A model generated the notes under the pieces. The model worked only from the letters and a program-made list of their open reading frames with translations, had not been told where the DNA came from and made no database searches. Shown here piece after piece: positions 26,392-45,435 of a stretch of 64,000 bases of DNA. A program made the position numbers and the translations under genes. Numbering within the stretch: position 1 is the stretch's first letter; each line of letters starts with the position of its first letter. This DNA is from Sulfurimonas sediminis (GTDB taxonomy: Bacteria > Campylobacterota > Campylobacteria > Campylobacterales > Sulfurimonadaceae). The DNA lies in assembly GCF_014905115.1 (NCBI RefSeq), contig NZ_CP041235.1:806001-870000 (forward strand), read 5' to 3'.

Positions 26392-26433
26392 CTTTTTATG
26401 CTAGAATACCTCAAAAATTTTAGAGGAATAAAC

Positions 26434-28602
26434 TTGACTAACACTTCACACGAAACAAAACGAACACTTCTTTATATTTTCATAGCTTTTGCTTTTTCTA
26501 TTTTTATGCGTCTTATTTGGGTATATAATTTTAACGGCTATGCACCGTTTTATTTTAACGGTCAATTTATGATAAATACCAATGATGGCTATTTTTGGGC
26601 GGAAGGTGCGAGGGATCTGCTCTCGGGAACTCTGACGAATCCTGATGCAAAAGAGTACCTCGATAAATTTCATCAGTTACATGACTTGTCTCCTGTTTCT
26701 TCTGCTGCCTCGCAACTTACAGCATTTTTTGCAAAGATTCTGCCTTTTTCTTTTGAGAGTGTTATCTTTTATTTGCCGGTGTTTTTGAGTTCACTTGTTG
26801 TCGTTCCAATTATCTTGATAGCCAAAGCACTCAAAAATTTAGAAATGGGATTAATTGCCGCACTTTTGGCATCAATTGCATGGAGTTACTATAACCGCAC
26901 CATGGCAGGGTATTATGATACTGATATGCTCAATATTGTACTGCCAATGTTTTTGCTTTGGTCTATTATTTGGGCGATTAAGACAAATAAAGATATATAT
27001 TTACTTTTTACTGCTTTGGATATTTTAGTTTATAGATGGTGGTACCCACAATCTTACTCTTTAGAATTTGCATTTTTTGGATTAATCCTTTTTTATACGC
27101 TAGTGTTTGATCGAAAAAATGTATTTAATTACAAACTACTGGCGATGATGATGTTTGCCATGATGAACACAGATGGACTTACTCGTCTTGGTGCTATTTT
27201 TACTCTATTCTACATTTTTAAACAAGAAAAATTTGATAAGTATATTTATTATATTTTAGGTCTATCAATCTTTGCTTTTTTTGTAACAGGTGGATTTTCT
27301 CCAATTTGGTCTCAGTTAAAAGGTTATGTTTTTAGAGAGAGTGTTAGTACGGGGGCTAAAGGACTGGGGCTTCACTTTTTCACGGTAATGCAAACGGTGC
27401 GAGAAGCAGGGCATATTCCATTTGAAACCTTTGCCAATCGAATCAGCGGAAATACTGTTACCTTTGTGATTGCCTTGTTTGGTTACATGTATCTGCTCTA
27501 TAAACACCGAATTATGCTCTTTTCGCTGCCTCTTGTCGGGCTTGGATTTTTAGCCTATGTCGGCGGACTTCGTTTTACTATTTATGCCGTACCGATTTTG
27601 GCTTTTGGCATTGCCTTTTTAATTACGCAAATTGCTTTAAAAATGCCTACGCAGAAGTTGAAAGTTTTAAGTATGATTGCTTTGACTTTACTGATACTCT
27701 ATCCAAATTATAAACATATAGAAGCGTATAAAGTACCTACTGTTTTTAATGCGGATGAAGTGAAAGTTTTAACTGCTTTGGGAAAAAAAGCTAATCGTGA
27801 AGATTATGTTGTCTCATGGTGGGATTATGGGTATCCGATTCGTTATTATGCTGATGTTAAAACATTGGCTGATGGCGGAAAACATAGTGGAAGTGTAAAT
27901 TTTCCTATAAGTTTTATGTTAACTCATACACAAGAAGAGGCTGCACAGATGGCGCGTCTTGATGTGGAGTATACTGAAAAAACATACGACTATATAGCAA
28001 AAAACAAAAAACAGATAGAAGATAAAAATCTCACAGTTTTTTCAAATATTGAACAGATGACAAAAGATTACGGGTACAAAGATACAAACAAATTTTTAAA
28101 GAGCTTGCAGTCTGATATTAAACTGCCGCAAAAAACGAGAGACATCTATTTTTATCTTCCTTTTAGAATGATAAACATTTATCCGACTGTCACACTTTTC
28201 TCAAATTTGAATTTAATGAACGGAGCCAAAAGAAAACAGCCGTTCTTTTTCATATCCCGAAACTTTAAAGATACCGGAGCAAAAATCCAGTTGGCTCAAA
28301 ATATTTTTTTAGACAAAAGAACTTCGATGCTTACCATAGGAAAGCAGACATTGCCTATCAGAAGATTTGTAGTGACAAAATATGATAAAAACATGCACCT
28401 GCATAAAGATGTGAAATTAATTAACCTTTCATCAAATATCAGTGTTATATATATGGCGGACTACAGAACCTTTTTAATTGTTGATGAAAAAACGTATAAT
28501 TCACTTTATATACAACTGATGGTACTGGAGAATTACAATAAAAAACTCTTTGAACCTGTGATACTAACACCACAGGCTAAAGTGTATAAGTTGAAAATAT
28601 AA
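26434..28602 (+). CDS. pglB: PglB-type oligosaccharyltransferase (STT3 family)
   Basis: A 722-residue membrane enzyme with an N-terminal region of about 13 helices and a C-terminal periplasmic domain that holds the catalytic signature WWDYGYPIRYYADVKTLADG. NTNDGYFWAEGARDLLSG and YYDTDMLNIVLP are the acidic motifs of external loops 1 and 2. It transfers a lipid-linked glycan to Asn of exported proteins. I choose TTG 26434 because AGAGGA lies 6 nt upstream; ATG 26398 in frame lies only 7 nt after the tRNA. No pgl transferases sit beside it, so its donor is made elsewhere or comes from the upstream locus. Confidence 0.88.
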   Translation: MTNTSHETKRTLLYIFIAFAFSIFMRLIWVYNFNGYAPFYFNGQFMINTNDGYFWAEGARDLLSGTLTNPDAKEYLDKFHQLHDLSPVSSAASQLTAFFAKILPFSFESVIFYLPVFLSSLVVVPIILIAKALKNLEMGLIAALLASIAWSYYNRTMAGYYDTDMLNIVLPMFLLWSIIWAIKTNKDIYLLFTALDILVYRWWYPQSYSLEFAFFGLILFYTLVFDRKNVFNYKLLAMMMFAMMNTDGLTRLGAIFTLFYIFKQEKFDKYIYYILGLSIFAFFVTGGFSPIWSQLKGYVFRESVSTGAKGLGLHFFTVMQTVREAGHIPFETFANRISGNTVTFVIALFGYMYLLYKHRIMLFSLPLVGLGFLAYVGGLRFTIYAVPILAFGIAFLITQIALKMPTQKLKVLSMIALTLLILYPNYKHIEAYKVPTVFNADEVKVLTALGKKANREDYVVSWWDYGYPIRYYADVKTLADGGKHSGSVNFPISFMLTHTQEEAAQMARLDVEYTEKTYDYIAKNKKQIEDKNLTVFSNIEQMTKDYGYKDTNKFLKSLQSDIKLPQKTRDIYFYLPFRMINIYPTVTLFSNLNLMNGAKRKQPFFFISRNFKDTGAKIQLAQNIFLDKRTSMLTIGKQTLPIRRFVVTKYDKNMHLHKDVKLINLSSNISVIYMADYRTFLIVDEKTYNSLYIQLMVLENYNKKLFEPVILTPQAKVYKLKI

Positions 28603-28635
28603 GAATGAAAGAACAGGCGGCACTGTGCAGTTTTT

Positions 28636-28807
28636 CGGAACCTATCCTTTAGGGTGGGCTGTATTTAAGTAAACATAATTAATGCTTTTTCGGAACCCGT
28701 ACTTCAGTGCGGGCTGAGAGTGGCAGTAAAATAACAACAGTCGGCACTAAAGTACCGATTCCGAGGAATGTGTAGTTTTTTCGGAACTCATCCTTCAGAG
28801 TGGGCTG
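28636..28807 (+). repeat. Palindromic repeat cluster (BIME-like) between pglB and galU
   Basis: The 266-nt gap holds four copies of one palindromic unit: forward copies at 28636-28661, 28691-28716 and 28782-28807, and a reverse copy at 28738-28763. The core of the second is CCCGTACTTCAGTGCGGG, flanked by CGGAA and CTG. Forward-reverse pairing around a short spacer is the layout of REP/BIME elements. The gap also holds the candidate galU -10 box TATAAT (28837-28842). Confidence 0.85.
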
Positions 28808-28868
28808 TATTTAAGTAAATATAACCAAATTTTCACTATAATAATCTTACTAAAAACAAAGGATTTTC

Positions 28869-29795
28869 TTGCAAACAACAATCAGAAAATGTCTTTTTCC
28901 GGCAGCAGGCTACGGAACAAGATTTTTACCGGCTACAAAAGCGATACCAAAGGAGATGCTCCCTGTTCTTACAAAACCACTACTCCAGTATGGGGTAGAA
29001 GAGGCTATAGAAGCAGGGCTGACTACTATGGCAATAGTTACTGGGCGTGGGAAGCGTGCAATTGAAGATCATTTTGATGTTTCTTATGAACTTGAGCATC
29101 AAATTAAAGGGACCGCAAAAGAGAGTTATTTACAAGAGATAAGAAATGTAATAACGACTTGCACTTTTTCCTATACACGACAAGTTGAGATGAAAGGGCT
29201 TGGGCATGCTATTTTGACCGGTGAGACACTTATAGGAAAAGAGCCTTTTGCTGTTATACTTGCAGATGATTTGTGTGACAATGAGGGTGCGGGTGTTTTA
29301 GCACAGATGGTAAAACTTTATGAAAAATATAAGTGTTCTATCGTTGCTGTTGAAGAAGTGCCTTATGAAGATACCAATAAATATGGTGTTGTGGCTATAG
29401 AAGAGCAGCCCGCACTAAAGTACGGGTTCCAAGAAAACGAATTGAGTGAAGATGAGTCGGGTGAAAAGGAGTTAAATGAGAGACGGAGCCCAGACTTTAG
29501 TCTGGGCGATAACGCTTTTAAAATTATAGATATGGTAGAAAAACCAGAACCAAAAGATGCCCCTTCAAACTTAGCCATCATAGGTAGATACATTCTGACT
29601 CCGGACATATTTAATATTTTACGTACAACAAAACCGGGCAAAGGCGGAGAGATCCAAATCACAGATGCTTTGCTGCAACAGGCAAAACAGGGCAGAGTGA
29701 TTGCTTATAAATTTCAGGGAAAACGCTTTGACTGTGGAAGTGTTGATGGTTTTGTTGCAGCTACAAATTATTTTTACAATAAGAGCCGTTCATGA
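28869..29795 (+). CDS. galU: UTP-glucose-1-phosphate uridylyltransferase with repeat-derived insertion
   Basis: GalU is recognised from FPAAGYGTRFLPATKAIPKE, MLPVLTKPLLQYGVEEAIEA, VILADDLCD, IIDMVEKPEP and GKRFDCGSVDGFVAATNYF. It makes UDP-glucose for surface glycans. The 308-residue length exceeds the usual 275-290, because about 35 residues (about 178-214) come from two palindromic repeats inserted in frame between VVAIEE and AFKIIDMVEKPEP. TTG 28869 is chosen because the protein begins there like GalU and AAAGGA precedes it. The insertion falls between conserved blocks, so activity may survive. Confidence 0.9.
   Translation: MQTTIRKCLFPAAGYGTRFLPATKAIPKEMLPVLTKPLLQYGVEEAIEAGLTTMAIVTGRGKRAIEDHFDVSYELEHQIKGTAKESYLQEIRNVITTCTFSYTRQVEMKGLGHAILTGETLIGKEPFAVILADDLCDNEGAGVLAQMVKLYEKYKCSIVAVEEVPYEDTNKYGVVAIEEQPALKYGFQENELSEDESGEKELNERRSPDFSLGDNAFKIIDMVEKPEPKDAPSNLAIIGRYILTPDIFNILRTTKPGKGGEIQITDALLQQAKQGRVIAYKFQGKRFDCGSVDGFVAATNYFYNKSRS
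29406..29508 (+). repeat. Two palindromic repeats inside galU coding sequence
   Basis: 29406-29430 carries the reverse unit with core CCCGCACTAAAGTACGGG and is translated QPALKYGFQ. 29484-29508 carries CCCAGACTTTAGTCTGGG and is translated RSPDFSLGD. Both are the family seen in the intergenic clusters; together with the spacer they account for the extra residues of GalU. Confidence 0.85.
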
Positions 29796-31222
29796 ACTAT
29801 AGTCATAATTTTAATCCGACTATCTCAGATGAAGATATTTTTGATGAAATTGTAAAAGAGAAGAGTTCTATTGGCTATTATACACTGCCACTTCAAGATG
29901 CATCTGCTTATAAAGAGTATGCCAAAACAGTGAGACAAACCAACATAGTCGTTATCGGTATCGGCGGCAGTACCCTTGGCACCTACGCTATTTATAAATT
30001 TTTAAAACATTCAAAAGATCTGAGAAAAAAACTTTTTTTTCTTGAAACTACAGACCCTATTGATATAAAGTCTAAGATTGAAAATATTGATTTGGAAGAT
30101 ACACTTTTTATAGTGATTTCAAAATCCGGGACAACTTTGGAAACAATAGCCTTGTTTAAGTATATAAACTCTTTGGTTACATGTAATAAAGAAAATACCG
30201 TGATTGTCAGTGAGAACGATTCCAAATTGAGTGATTATGCCCGTATGCACAGTATGAAAATTTTTGAGATTCCGAAAAATGTCGGAGGACGCTTTTCTGT
30301 GTTTTGTGCAGTGGGTTTGCTTCCTTTGGCAATAGTGGGGATAGATATAGATGCACTGTTAGGCGGTGCAAAAAAAGTACATGACGAGTTTTTTTATGTA
30401 GATGCCCAACAGCCCGCACTAAAGTACGGGTTCCAGAGTATTTCTGAAACCGCTACTTCAGTTCCTCTGTACAATGATGAAATTGACAATATTTCTGAAA
30501 CTGCTACTTCAGTTCCTCTGCACAATAATGACAAAGCTAATATCTCCGGAACCGGTACTTCAGTGCCGGCTGACAATGGCATAAATACTAAACAACGCCT
30601 CTTAAAAAAAGCCCGGTTTTTAGTCGAATACAAATACAACTTTAACATAAATGTAGTCTTTTCCTACTCCTCACGCCTTGAGGGTTTCAACAAGTGGTAT
30701 ATTCAGCTTTGGGGAGAAAGTCTTGGGAAAATTGATATAAACAATACACGTCAGGGATTGACACCTATCGGTATTATCGGTCCGATTGATCAGCACTCGT
30801 TTTTACAGCTTATCATCGAAGGCAGGCGAGATAAAACGGTCACTGTCATCAAGGTGGAAAATTTTGACAATGATCTGAAAATTCCGGATGTAAAACTAGA
30901 AGGGCTTGAAGAGTTACAATACCTCAATAATATACCTTTTTCCGCATTGATAAACAAACAGGCGGATGCAACGATAGAATCAATAAACAACCAAAAAGAC
31001 ATCCCGTGTGATGTGATAACAATAGACGGTGTTTGTGAAAGTGCCATTGCCGCTTTAATGTATGAATATGAACTGTTGACTTCCCTGTGTGCAAAATTGA
31101 TGTATATTGATGCCTACAATCAACCCGGTGTTGAAAACGGCAAAATTATTTTGAAAAAGAAATTGAAACAAGACAGAAATGATGACAGCTTTTATATGCT
31201 ACAATCAGGAAAAAATATTTGA
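29792..31222 (+). CDS. pgi: Glucose-6-phosphate isomerase with repeat-derived insertion
   Basis: PGI is recognised from VVIGIGGSTLGTYAIYKFL, FVISKSGTTLETIALF, PKNVGGRFSVFCAVGLLPLA, and the end segment QLWGESLGKID with GPIDQHSFLQLIIEGRRDK. It interconverts glucose-6-P and fructose-6-P. At 476 residues it is clearly longer than the compact PGIs of about 400 that I expect in this group. Residues about 205-265 are made from four palindromic repeat copies. The start overlaps the galU stop (ATGA). TTACATGTAA occurs at 30177-30186. Confidence 0.9.
   Translation: MNYSHNFNPTISDEDIFDEIVKEKSSIGYYTLPLQDASAYKEYAKTVRQTNIVVIGIGGSTLGTYAIYKFLKHSKDLRKKLFFLETTDPIDIKSKIENIDLEDTLFIVISKSGTTLETIALFKYINSLVTCNKENTVIVSENDSKLSDYARMHSMKIFEIPKNVGGRFSVFCAVGLLPLAIVGIDIDALLGGAKKVHDEFFYVDAQQPALKYGFQSISETATSVPLYNDEIDNISETATSVPLHNNDKANISGTGTSVPADNGINTKQRLLKKARFLVEYKYNFNINVVFSYSSRLEGFNKWYIQLWGESLGKIDINNTRQGLTPIGIIGPIDQHSFLQLIIEGRRDKTVTVIKVENFDNDLKIPDVKLEGLEELQYLNNIPFSALINKQADATIESINNQKDIPCDVITIDGVCESAIAALMYEYELLTSLCAKLMYIDAYNQPGVENGKIILKKKLKQDRNDDSFYMLQSGKNI
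30410..30572 (+). repeat. Four palindromic repeats inside pgi coding sequence
   Basis: One reverse copy (30410-30434, translated QPALKYGFQ, the same peptide as in GalU) is followed by three forward copies at 30444-30469, 30495-30520 and 30546-30572, translated ETATSVPL, ETATSVPL and GTGTSVPA. The first two forward copies are decayed at the palindrome arms; the last keeps CCGGTACTTCAGTGCCGG. Confidence 0.85.
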
Positions 31223-31231
31223 GTAGGATAT

Positions 31232-33046
31232 ATGCAAAAAACGATAAAACTTTTACAAAAAAATGATGAACTCACAATAATAGATACTGAACTCGATATA
31301 TATCTTGAAATTCCGCATCTGGCATATGCCGAAGTAAAAAAAGAAGAGGGTGGCAAAGCACTGCTTTTTACCAAGGTTGTTGATAAAAAAAACGGTAAAA
31401 AATTTGAAGAACCGGTCATGATGAATCTTTTTGGATCTTATAGGCGTTGTGAACTGCTCTTTGGACGAACAATTGAGTCTGTGGCAGATGAAATTACAAA
31501 ACTGCTGCATATGAAACCGCCCGTAGGCTTCAAAGAGAAAATTTCTATGGCAAGTGAACTTTTTTCACTCAAAAATATTTTTCCAAAACGTCTCAAAGGC
31601 GAGGGAGAATGCCAGCAGATAAAATATTTAAAAGATGAAATAGATTTATATAAATTACCGGTCCTGACAACCTGGGAACAAGACGGCGGACCTTTTATTA
31701 CAATGGGGCAGGTCTATACACAAAGTCTTGACGGCGAAATGGTAAACCTTGGGATGTACAGGTTACAGGTATATGATAAAAATCATTTGGGCATGCACTG
31801 GCAGATACATAAGGATTCTTCACACTTTTTTGATCAGTATCAAAAAGCCGGAAAAAAAATGCCTGTAAGTATAGCTGTTGGAGGGGATCCTCTGTATACC
31901 TGGTGCGCAACGGCACCGCTTCCTTATGGCGTGAATGAGCTTTTGATGTATGGACTGATTACTAAAAAGCCTGCACAGCTTGTAAAATCTTTGACAACAC
32001 CTTTGTATATTCCAAAAGATGTGGATTATGTAATAGAGGGCTGGGTTGATCCTGATAATTTGAAAATTGAAGGTCCGTTTGGTGACCATACGGGATACTA
32101 CACTTTGGAAGAGCCCTATCCTGTGATGGAAGTTTCAGCGATAACGATGAAGCAAAAAAGAACTTTTCTAGCTACCGTTGTCGGAAAACCACCGCTTGAA
32201 GACAAATATATGGGCTGGGTAACAGGAAAAATTTTCTTTCCTTTGCTCAAAACAACTGCTCCTGATTTGCTGGATTATCATATGCCTGAAAATGCAGGTT
32301 TTCACAACCTGATACTTGCAAAAATGCAGCCACTTTACAAAGGACATGCAAAACAGTTTATGCACGCTTTTTGGGGTGCCGGACAGATGAGCTTTGTAAA
32401 ACATGCCATTTTTGTTGATGAAAAAGCACCAAAACTGGAGAATTATGAAGCTTTTGCCACATATGTTCTGAATCGTTTTACTCCTAAATCTATGTTTATT
32501 ACAGAAGGTATCCTGGATGCGCTTGATCACTCATCTCCCGAGACTCTGGTGGGCGGAAAGCTTGGCATAGATGCTACAGGCGCAAACAGTGTTGAAGCTC
32601 CTCAGCTTTTGGGAGATGCAGAACTTCTCAGCAGAGTAAAAGAGCTCATTCCCGATGTTGTAGATTTGCATCAGTTTATGCAACGCACAAACAATCCTGT
32701 TACGGTCATCAGTGTGGAGAAAAAAAGAAATGTCAAAGAGTATTTCGATGATTTGCTGGTACTGAGTACACATGTAAGAGTGGTTGTATTCGTTGATGCT
32801 GAAAAAAATGACATACGGAACTCTTATATGCTGATTTGGCGTGTCACGAACAATATGGATGCACTGCGTGATGTATATACATCAGGACTCATGGTAGGTA
32901 TTGACGGTACAAATAAAAATTCGTTGGATAATTTTACAAGAGAATGGCCTGATGATGTCGAGTGTACACAGAGTGTTGTTGCAAAGTTAAAAGAAAAAGG
33001 AGTCTGGAGTCTGGACGAAAAACTCTCCGGTAAGTTTCAATTATAG
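31232..33046 (+). CDS. ubiD: UbiD-family prenylated-FMN decarboxylase
   Basis: A 604-residue UbiD protein. GGPFITMGQVYTQSLDGEMV, MHWQIHKDSSHFF, PVSIAVGGDPLYTW, EGPFGDHTGYYTLEEPYPV (with the catalytic Glu region) and KLGIDATGANSVEA are family blocks. It removes a carboxyl group from an aromatic ring in quinone synthesis; in Campylobacterota a UbiD homologue is thought to act late in the futalosine route to menaquinone. AGGAT before ATG 31232 is the ribosome site. It lies 9 nt after pgi, probably co-transcribed. Confidence 0.88.
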   Translation: MQKTIKLLQKNDELTIIDTELDIYLEIPHLAYAEVKKEEGGKALLFTKVVDKKNGKKFEEPVMMNLFGSYRRCELLFGRTIESVADEITKLLHMKPPVGFKEKISMASELFSLKNIFPKRLKGEGECQQIKYLKDEIDLYKLPVLTTWEQDGGPFITMGQVYTQSLDGEMVNLGMYRLQVYDKNHLGMHWQIHKDSSHFFDQYQKAGKKMPVSIAVGGDPLYTWCATAPLPYGVNELLMYGLITKKPAQLVKSLTTPLYIPKDVDYVIEGWVDPDNLKIEGPFGDHTGYYTLEEPYPVMEVSAITMKQKRTFLATVVGKPPLEDKYMGWVTGKIFFPLLKTTAPDLLDYHMPENAGFHNLILAKMQPLYKGHAKQFMHAFWGAGQMSFVKHAIFVDEKAPKLENYEAFATYVLNRFTPKSMFITEGILDALDHSSPETLVGGKLGIDATGANSVEAPQLLGDAELLSRVKELIPDVVDLHQFMQRTNNPVTVISVEKKRNVKEYFDDLLVLSTHVRVVVFVDAEKNDIRNSYMLIWRVTNNMDALRDVYTSGLMVGIDGTNKNSLDNFTREWPDDVECTQSVVAKLKEKGVWSLDEKLSGKFQL

Positions 33047-45185: not shown

Positions 45186-45435
45186 CTGGAACCCGTACTT
45201 CAGTGCGGGCGAGAGTGACAGGAACGTTTTAACAGTCGGCACTGAAGTACCGATTCCGAAGAATGTATGACTTTTTTGGAACCCATCCTTTAGTGCGGGC
45301 GAGAGTGGCCGGAACGTTTTAACAGTCGGCACTGCAGAAAAAAATTTAGTTTTTTTCTAAGTTATGCTTTAGTATAGAAAGTACCGATTCCGAGGAATGT
45401 GTGACTTTTTGGAACCCATCCTTTAGGGTGGGCTG
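45186..45435. repeat. Tandem BIME-like repeat array between serA and the SDR gene
   Basis: This 319-nt gap between convergent genes holds no gene, but two and a half units of the palindromic family. Forward copies are at 45186-45210, 45276-45300 and 45411-45435; reverse copies at 45233-45258 and, split, at 45323-45334 plus 45381-45392. Spacers (GAGAGTGGC, GGAACGTTTTAA) repeat too, giving a unit of roughly 90-105 bp. The split copy contains about 46 extra nt with its own hairpin (AGAAAAAAA / TTTTTTTCT). Confidence 0.85.

Follow-up and report, generated by a model that had tools for sequence, protein, structure and literature searches.

Two adjacent metabolic genes of Sulfurimonas sediminis contain copies of a short palindromic repeat within their reading frames. 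The stretch of DNA analysed here, called the window, covers 64,000 nucleotides of the 2.32-Mb single-contig genome G000 (G000:C1:806001-870000). Both genes are on the forward strand of the window: galU, encoding UTP-glucose-1-phosphate uridylyltransferase (28869-29795, 308 aa, TTG start), and pgi, encoding glucose-6-phosphate isomerase (29792-31222, 476 aa), and their open reading frames (ORFs) overlap by 4 bases. Judged by its sequence, the repeat behaves as a repetitive extragenic palindromic (REP) element, and REP-derived inserts occupy approximately residues 180-212 of GalU and 205-263 of PGI. As the first-pass annotation of this DNA had stated, palindromic repeat DNA is in frame and read through in both ORFs, and the inserts are placed between conserved blocks. 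The repeat core CCCGTACTTCAGTGCGGG has 6 matches in the window at ≤3 mismatches, vs 0.00 expected (100 shuffles).

We detected two REPs in galU, one in reverse orientation to the gene (29406-29430, minus strand), translated to QPALKYGF, and one in forward orientation (29485-29506, plus strand, stem CCCAGAC/GTCTGGG), translated to SPDFSLG. The two bracket ~30 added residues, vs the ~35 claimed earlier. The insert of pgi, at ~60 residues as claimed, starts with a reverse REP (30410-30434, minus strand), again translated to QPALKYGF, and the reported peptide QPALKYGFQ is present in both translations. It continues with a forward tandem array of three 51-bp units (30439-30591), in which units 1 and 2 are REP copies whose palindrome is broken (TATSVPL) and unit 3 includes an intact forward REP (30548-30569, plus strand), translated to GTGTSVPA and identical in the three genomes compared below. 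The first-pass annotation had counted six copies in the two genes, spanning 29406-30572. The start of that span is correct and four copies are intact, but the other two count only as decayed and no longer palindromic, the PGI units reach slightly farther (30591), and much of the length added to PGI is tandem expansion of a decayed REP instead of separate insertions.

The repeat family and its candidate transposase

The repeat consists of a GGAA tag, a 7-bp stem and a TTYA loop. A genome search for its core, proposed as a check in the annotation, found 142 copies in G000 at ≤2 mismatches, 122 in the related genome G011 and 22 in G034, a metagenome-assembled genome (MAG), with 0 copies at this threshold in the remaining 57 of the 60 relative genomes; the reversed pattern, used as a control, gave 0 matches in all genomes. 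A second count, at ≤5 mismatches in 368,513 bases selected around the REP sites of G000, gave 154 copies. The tag is GGAA in 150/154 of them, a figure favoured by the search pattern, which began with GGAA, and the loop is TTCA or TTTA in 152/154. Each of the seven stem pairs is formed in 146-154 of the 154 copies, with compensatory pair types CG/TA, CG/GC, GC/AT, TG/GC and AT/CG. Of 54 neighbours within 60 bp, 53 are oppositely oriented and 29 lie at exactly 49 bp, and 40 of the 154 copies are isolated.

Only 10 of the 154 copies fall in any ORF of at least 130 aa, vs 1227 of 1500 random 22-mers from the same stretches under the same criterion, and 7 of the 154 are credible in-gene copies (8 including the second galU copy). 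Five of the six reading frames of a REP are free of stop codons with the loop TTCA and four with TTTA, so that copies would be translatable as flexible extra loops. We also found a 155-bp element (G000:C1:786667-786821) with terminal inverted repeats and a REP pair at its centre, which is cleanly absent at the matching site of G011 (G011:C1:1550121-1550122), which shows that such elements come and go. Many of the 49-bp REP pairs share the flanks of this element. The Rfam scan of 28500-31300 gave two chance matches only, far under the gathering scores, and in a plasmid search with the region, the 8 listed of 10 records match the galU part only and none the repeat.

The candidate REP-associated tyrosine transposase (RAYT) gene, encoding a 169-aa Y1_Tnp protein, is located ~14 kb before the window (G000:C1:791253-791759), with one REP following at a distance of 10 bp and another preceding it at 150 bp. 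Its best NCBIfam model is the REP-associated tyrosine transposase NF047646 (E 1.3e-19). The RAYT of G011 is 88% identical and also lies between REPs, and a full gene or a remnant is present in all three REP-bearing genomes among the 60 covered (G000, G011 and G034). An HxH motif and a downstream tyrosine are visible in the RAYT sequence. High copy number with a compensated hairpin, regularly spaced inverted pairs, a mostly extragenic location and a RAYT gene flanked by REPs indicate a family of the REP/REPIN type with linkage to the putative RAYT gene.

Near the RAYT homologue of G009 (58%) there are four REPs that share the GGAA tag but differ in the stem, three of them within 110 bp and one at 1.9 kb. 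A genome-wide scan at ≤2 mismatches found no further copies of this REP. Two longer Y1_Tnp genes (350- and 355-aa frames), ~1.2 kb apart, were detected at G000:C1:233282-235880; no REP of the window family was found in the stretch around them (L103).

Relatives, stages of the inserts and the state of the enzymes

The proposed alignment of GalU and PGI with relatives confirmed that nearly all of them lack the segments. The anchor-to-anchor spacing of GalU is 64 residues in the window vs 30-38 in 78 of the 80 named loci. The two exceptions are L168, from the Sulfurimonas MAG G065 (41 residues, same REP), and L170, from NORP87 (G064; 79 residues, another repeat). The PGI segment is absent in 19 of the 20 named loci, one of the 19 being partial, and present in L168. 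In a further set of homologues, the rows outside G000 and G011 likewise contain neither REP-derived segment and have only small unrelated length differences, and the alignments to the closest solved homologues of GalU and PGI split into two stretches at the insert positions.

The three insert-bearing genomes represent different stages. L168 has only the reverse REP in galU, with no tandem array, and its pgi holds one decayed unit; in the window, galU has two REPs and pgi two decayed units; G011 has both galU REPs with a further decayed copy, and four decayed 51-bp units in pgi. The four intergenic REPs 5' of galU in the window (28637-28804, at 28637+, 28692+, 28741- and 28783+) also differ from the set in G011 and from L168, where no intergenic REP was recognised upstream of galU. 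The insertions are inherited in the three genomes rather than fresh; they are sufficiently old to be common to all three, at different stages, and change is still going on.

The window proteins pass the NCBIfam cut-offs (GalU vs TIGR01099, 382.8 bits, cut-off 326.8; PGI vs NF003016, 548.9 bits, cut-off 487), and retain the residues that do not vary in alignments of 39 GalU and 19 PGI sequences. The cores are under purifying selection: the ratio of nonsynonymous to synonymous substitution rates (dN/dS) is 0.024 for window-G011, 0.096 for window-L168 and 0.059 for G011-L168 in GalU, and 0.130, 0.059 and 0.078 for the same pairs in PGI. In the inserts, where the alignments are short and partly ambiguous, dN/dS is 0.55 for window-G011, undefined for window-L168 (no synonymous change) and 0.06 for G011-L168 in GalU, and 0.30, 0.31 and 0.11, respectively, in PGI.

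AlphaFold2 models of GalU and PGI have a mean predicted local distance difference test score (pLDDT) of 84.5 and 79.3. The score is below 50 at GalU 185-212 and PGI 205-263, and also at the first 4 and the last 11 residues of PGI, while the remainder outside the inserts is mostly confident. Mapped on these models, as had been suggested, the inserts are predicted disordered loops, located between two strands in GalU and between two helices in PGI, and the whole GalU structure matches solved UDP-glucose pyrophosphorylases. Both modelled enzymes look intact.

The first-pass annotation named loss of both enzymes with intact paralogues elsewhere as a finding that would speak against it. This is half the case for PGI, since G000 encodes two insert-free and REP-free paralogues (C1:213029-214264 and C1:219541-220737), but G011 gave no PGI match besides the insert-bearing one, and the matches listed for G000 and G011 include only one strong GalU each. 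Two REPs (221545/221580) lie ~0.8 kb from the second PGI paralogue, with sugar-nucleotide genes nearby.

The outer REPs (the reverse REP of galU and the reverse and intact forward REPs of pgi) were compared at degenerate codons encoding the same residue, in a test that was devised after the sequences had been seen and that uses 26 codons and genome pairs that are not independent. For window-L168, 1/26 codons differ vs 177/608 in the cores, and as low a value occurs in 0.3% of random core blocks; for G011-L168, 1/26 differ vs 191/604 (0.03%); for window-G011, 2/26 differ vs 135/638 (6.5%, not significant). The pattern hints that the hairpin DNA of the outer REPs is maintained or homogenised, either of which would yield it. 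The few changes represent the loop variant CTA/CTG, which is variable genome-wide, so homogenisation among copies also explains the pattern.

The core dS between the window and G011 is 0.78 in galU and 0.25 in the adjoining pgi, a contrast that suggests recombination within the gene pair. A large membrane-protein gene (26398-28602) is located immediately upstream of the intergenic REP cluster and galU, and its product is presumably STT3/PglB-type oligosaccharyltransferase-like. The window contains one other cluster of repeat matches (45188-45432, at 45188+, 45236-, 45278+ and 45411+).

In-frame copies in other genes and unrelated repeats in the same loops

The priA gene contains an in-frame REP in the linker between the DNA-binding and helicase domains, and priA of G011 has two. 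The rfbD gene (217450) probably carries an in-frame copy, with 5 mismatches and a ~10-residue insert relative to a PDB homologue. The ugd product of G000 has eight additional residues, RTGTSVPA, relative to PDB 3pid, in a loop whose length is variable also in relatives without the window REP; ugd had no match in G011. The REP at 803657 joins a nucleotidyltransferase-like ORF (weak matches) in frame to ugd (G000:C1:802916-804862), and this copy was counted as in-gene but is ambiguous, as ugd may start at its own ATG instead. In the stretches examined, internal copies were found in galU, pgi and priA of G011 (124 copies) and in galU and pgi of G065 (43 copies and 3 in L168, identical DNA), and none of the 22 copies of G034 was inside a gene.

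Several candidates were rejected. The G000 copies at 172712 and 172761 fall in one 140-aa ORF without support, the copy at 408705 lies ahead of the point where a peroxiredoxin-like gene (identified by eye) probably starts, and the N-terminal read-in cases of G011 and G065 (L307, L316, L325, L332, L252 and L341) were excluded from the counts. A single fixed reading frame was ruled out, as the frames giving GTGTSVPA, SPDFSLG, QPALKYGF and, in priA of G011, AGTEVAVP are all used.

Unrelated repeats were detected in the same loops of other genomes. In the GalU loop of NORP87, a 24-bp tandem array lies between two CGTC-type REPs, of which the reverse one is degenerate and the forward one is interrupted by 24 bases. 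The reverse REP has 5/26 mismatches, with 0/500 shuffles as good; two better CGTC matches (3 and 4 mismatches) elsewhere in the locus are apparently ordinary copies, and 56 CGTC REPs at ≤3 mismatches genome-wide place the repeat in the CGTC superfamily. The PriA linker of G016 (C34, L298) has a 21-bp tandem array between exact CGTC REPs, one reverse and one forward, and that of G004 (C29, L297) has two copies of another repeat. NORP87 GalU and G016 PriA share the layout of inverted copy, tandem repeats and forward copy, with both tandem arrays read by eye, and the tags of the REP pairs face inward in PGI and GalU of the window, in PriA of G011 and G016 and in GalU of NORP87. It is possible, though doubtful, that the GalU hairpin tip and the PriA linker of Sulfurimonas are recurrent landing sites for unrelated REP superfamilies, with an inward-tag outer pair and tandem growth, and with outer copies conserved as DNA while translated, that is, mobile or regulatory hairpin and protein in one; the loop sharing and inward tags are observations on these individual genes.

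Origin of the inserts and known systems

We consider it very probable that REPs of a REP/REPIN-RAYT family settled in frame in loops of GalU and PGI in a common ancestor, then grew and were tolerated, with no dedicated function of the peptides. The RAYT before the window would mobilise the REPs, and in the common ancestor of the three Sulfurimonas genomes a REP or an inverted pair would have landed in frame in the exposed loops of both enzymes. GalU would later have grown by the second REP, whereas in PGI a unit of REP and spacer would have been duplicated in tandem, inside the outer inverted pair. The decayed inner units would evolve as ordinary coding sequence, with the outer REPs retaining the hairpin sequence, and the insert peptides most likely lack a dedicated function. 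The great majority of the copies examined are extragenic, suggesting that the translated copies are survivors in tolerant loops.

Several points weigh against this explanation. The RAYT score (70.6 bits) is below the NCBIfam cut-off of 80, and the RAYT of G034, a MAG that is 73% complete, is truncated to an N-terminal piece of 81 residues (61%) followed by a stop, beside REPs. The only clean empty site belongs to the longer composite element, and there is none at base resolution for a single intragenic REP. The two insert-free PGI paralogues could make the window pgi dispensable in this genome, and ugd is without ~13 residues conserved in relatives and may be decaying, which weakens that example. 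So little synonymous change in the outer REPs would not be expected of a peptide that is only tolerated, and that the inserts are actually translated and harmless is inferred.

Slippage could have produced the inserts as in-frame tandem repeats, with their likeness to the intergenic repeats arising by chance or by copying from gene to intergene. The 51-bp array in PGI and the 24-bp and 21-bp arrays in NORP87 GalU and G016 PriA would fit this origin, but it is very unlikely, as the outer copies represent the genome-wide REP at 0-1 mismatch including tag, loop and stem, with 0.00 chance matches, and GalU of L168 has one REP and no array. There is a similarly slim chance that the insert-bearing genes are becoming pseudogenes with the enzymes supplied elsewhere. 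The two REP-free PGI paralogues and the shortened ugd just before the window point in that direction, but a core dN/dS of 0.02-0.13, the invariant residues and the passed cut-offs argue for working genes, as does the fact that no other PGI was matched in G011 and no further strong GalU was among the matches listed for G000 and G011.

A function selected in the translated REPs, either of the DNA or RNA hairpin (supercoiling, mRNA stability, translation pausing) or of the peptide (regulatory loop, protein contact), is unlikely, but deserves more weight. Synonymous change at 1/26 codons in both comparisons with L168 and the strikes of unrelated REPs on the same loops are consistent with it. However, that test was post hoc, with 26 codons, dependent pairs and a non-significant window-G011 value, homogenisation would give the same result, and the insert length varies among genomes in segments predicted to be disordered. 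It is extremely improbable that the repeats are Rickettsia palindromic elements (RPEs) or another coding-targeted element and not REPs: palindromes translated in metabolic genes are the same outcome, according to the sections consulted of PMC10969869, but 147/154 copies are outside credible genes, and the hairpin, stem pairing and RAYT linkage fit REPs.

With REPs settled in loops of a common ancestor, three related genomes would illustrate step by step how repeat DNA turns into protein, from one REP to two and to a tandem array, within enzymes that remain strongly selected. The GGAA-tagged family also adds Sulfurimonas to the bacteria with intragenic REPs. In the GalU loop and the PriA linker, the independent CGTC-type inserts lead to a testable rule on the loops that accept mobile hairpins, and the conserved synonymous sites allow asking whether a translated REP remains an active DNA element. 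Among the papers listed in a search that most subscription papers were beyond, we found no report of these inserts under REPs in Sulfurimonas or Epsilonproteobacteria or under in-frame REPINs, and none of the stage series, of unrelated REPs landing in a shared loop or of the synonymous constraint; S. gotlandica is named once, in a table, in the sections available of PMC12306157.

The window repeat is similar to known REP/REPIN systems with RAYT (TnpA-REP) in its short hairpin with an unpaired 5' tag, more than 100 copies, mostly extragenic location, inverted pairs and a RAYT gene between REPs (for further REPIN/TnpA-REP literature, see PMC3116915, PMC8266576 and PMC2817692). It differs in the RAYT score below the NCBIfam cut-off and in its tag, GGAA(C) and not GTAG, which places it outside the GTAG superfamily (GGAA in 150/154 copies with a pattern seeded with GGAA).

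Reports of in-frame REPs date back to 2013. The consulted sections of Di Nocera et al. 2013 (PMC3733652) describe GTAG and CGTC REPs and REP dimers within ORFs of several species, name Sulfurovum sp. NBC37-1 as having both types and report different REPs at about the same recB site in X. campestris and X. oryzae. Over half of those intragenic REPs are dimers or groups encoding 20-30 aa, with clusters of 43-82 aa, and DNA replication/repair genes are among their targets, as priA is here. Relative to what these sections contain, the genus Sulfurimonas, the GGAA tag, the galU, pgi and ugd targets, the three-genome stage series and an enzyme loop occupied by REPs of more than one superfamily are distinct.

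RPEs (Ogata 2000, 2002, as summarised in the same sections of PMC10969869) are ~150 bp long and form ten families, with nearly half of the copies in ORFs. Compared by description only, they share with the window repeat the in-frame translation of palindromes in unrelated metabolic genes (PMC10969869, PMC3733652), and differ from its ~25 bp and its 7-8 of ~155 copies in genes. PMC3733652 counts RPE-4 and RPE-6 of R. conorii among the CGTC repeats, so that by tag the NORP87 and G016 inserts are nearer to RPEs than the window repeat is. The resemblance to the coding palindromes of Rickettsia, proposed in the first-pass annotation for a lineage that is indeed distant, holds for the outcome, while the element itself behaves as a REP/REPIN with RAYT in its hairpin, its pairs and its linkage.

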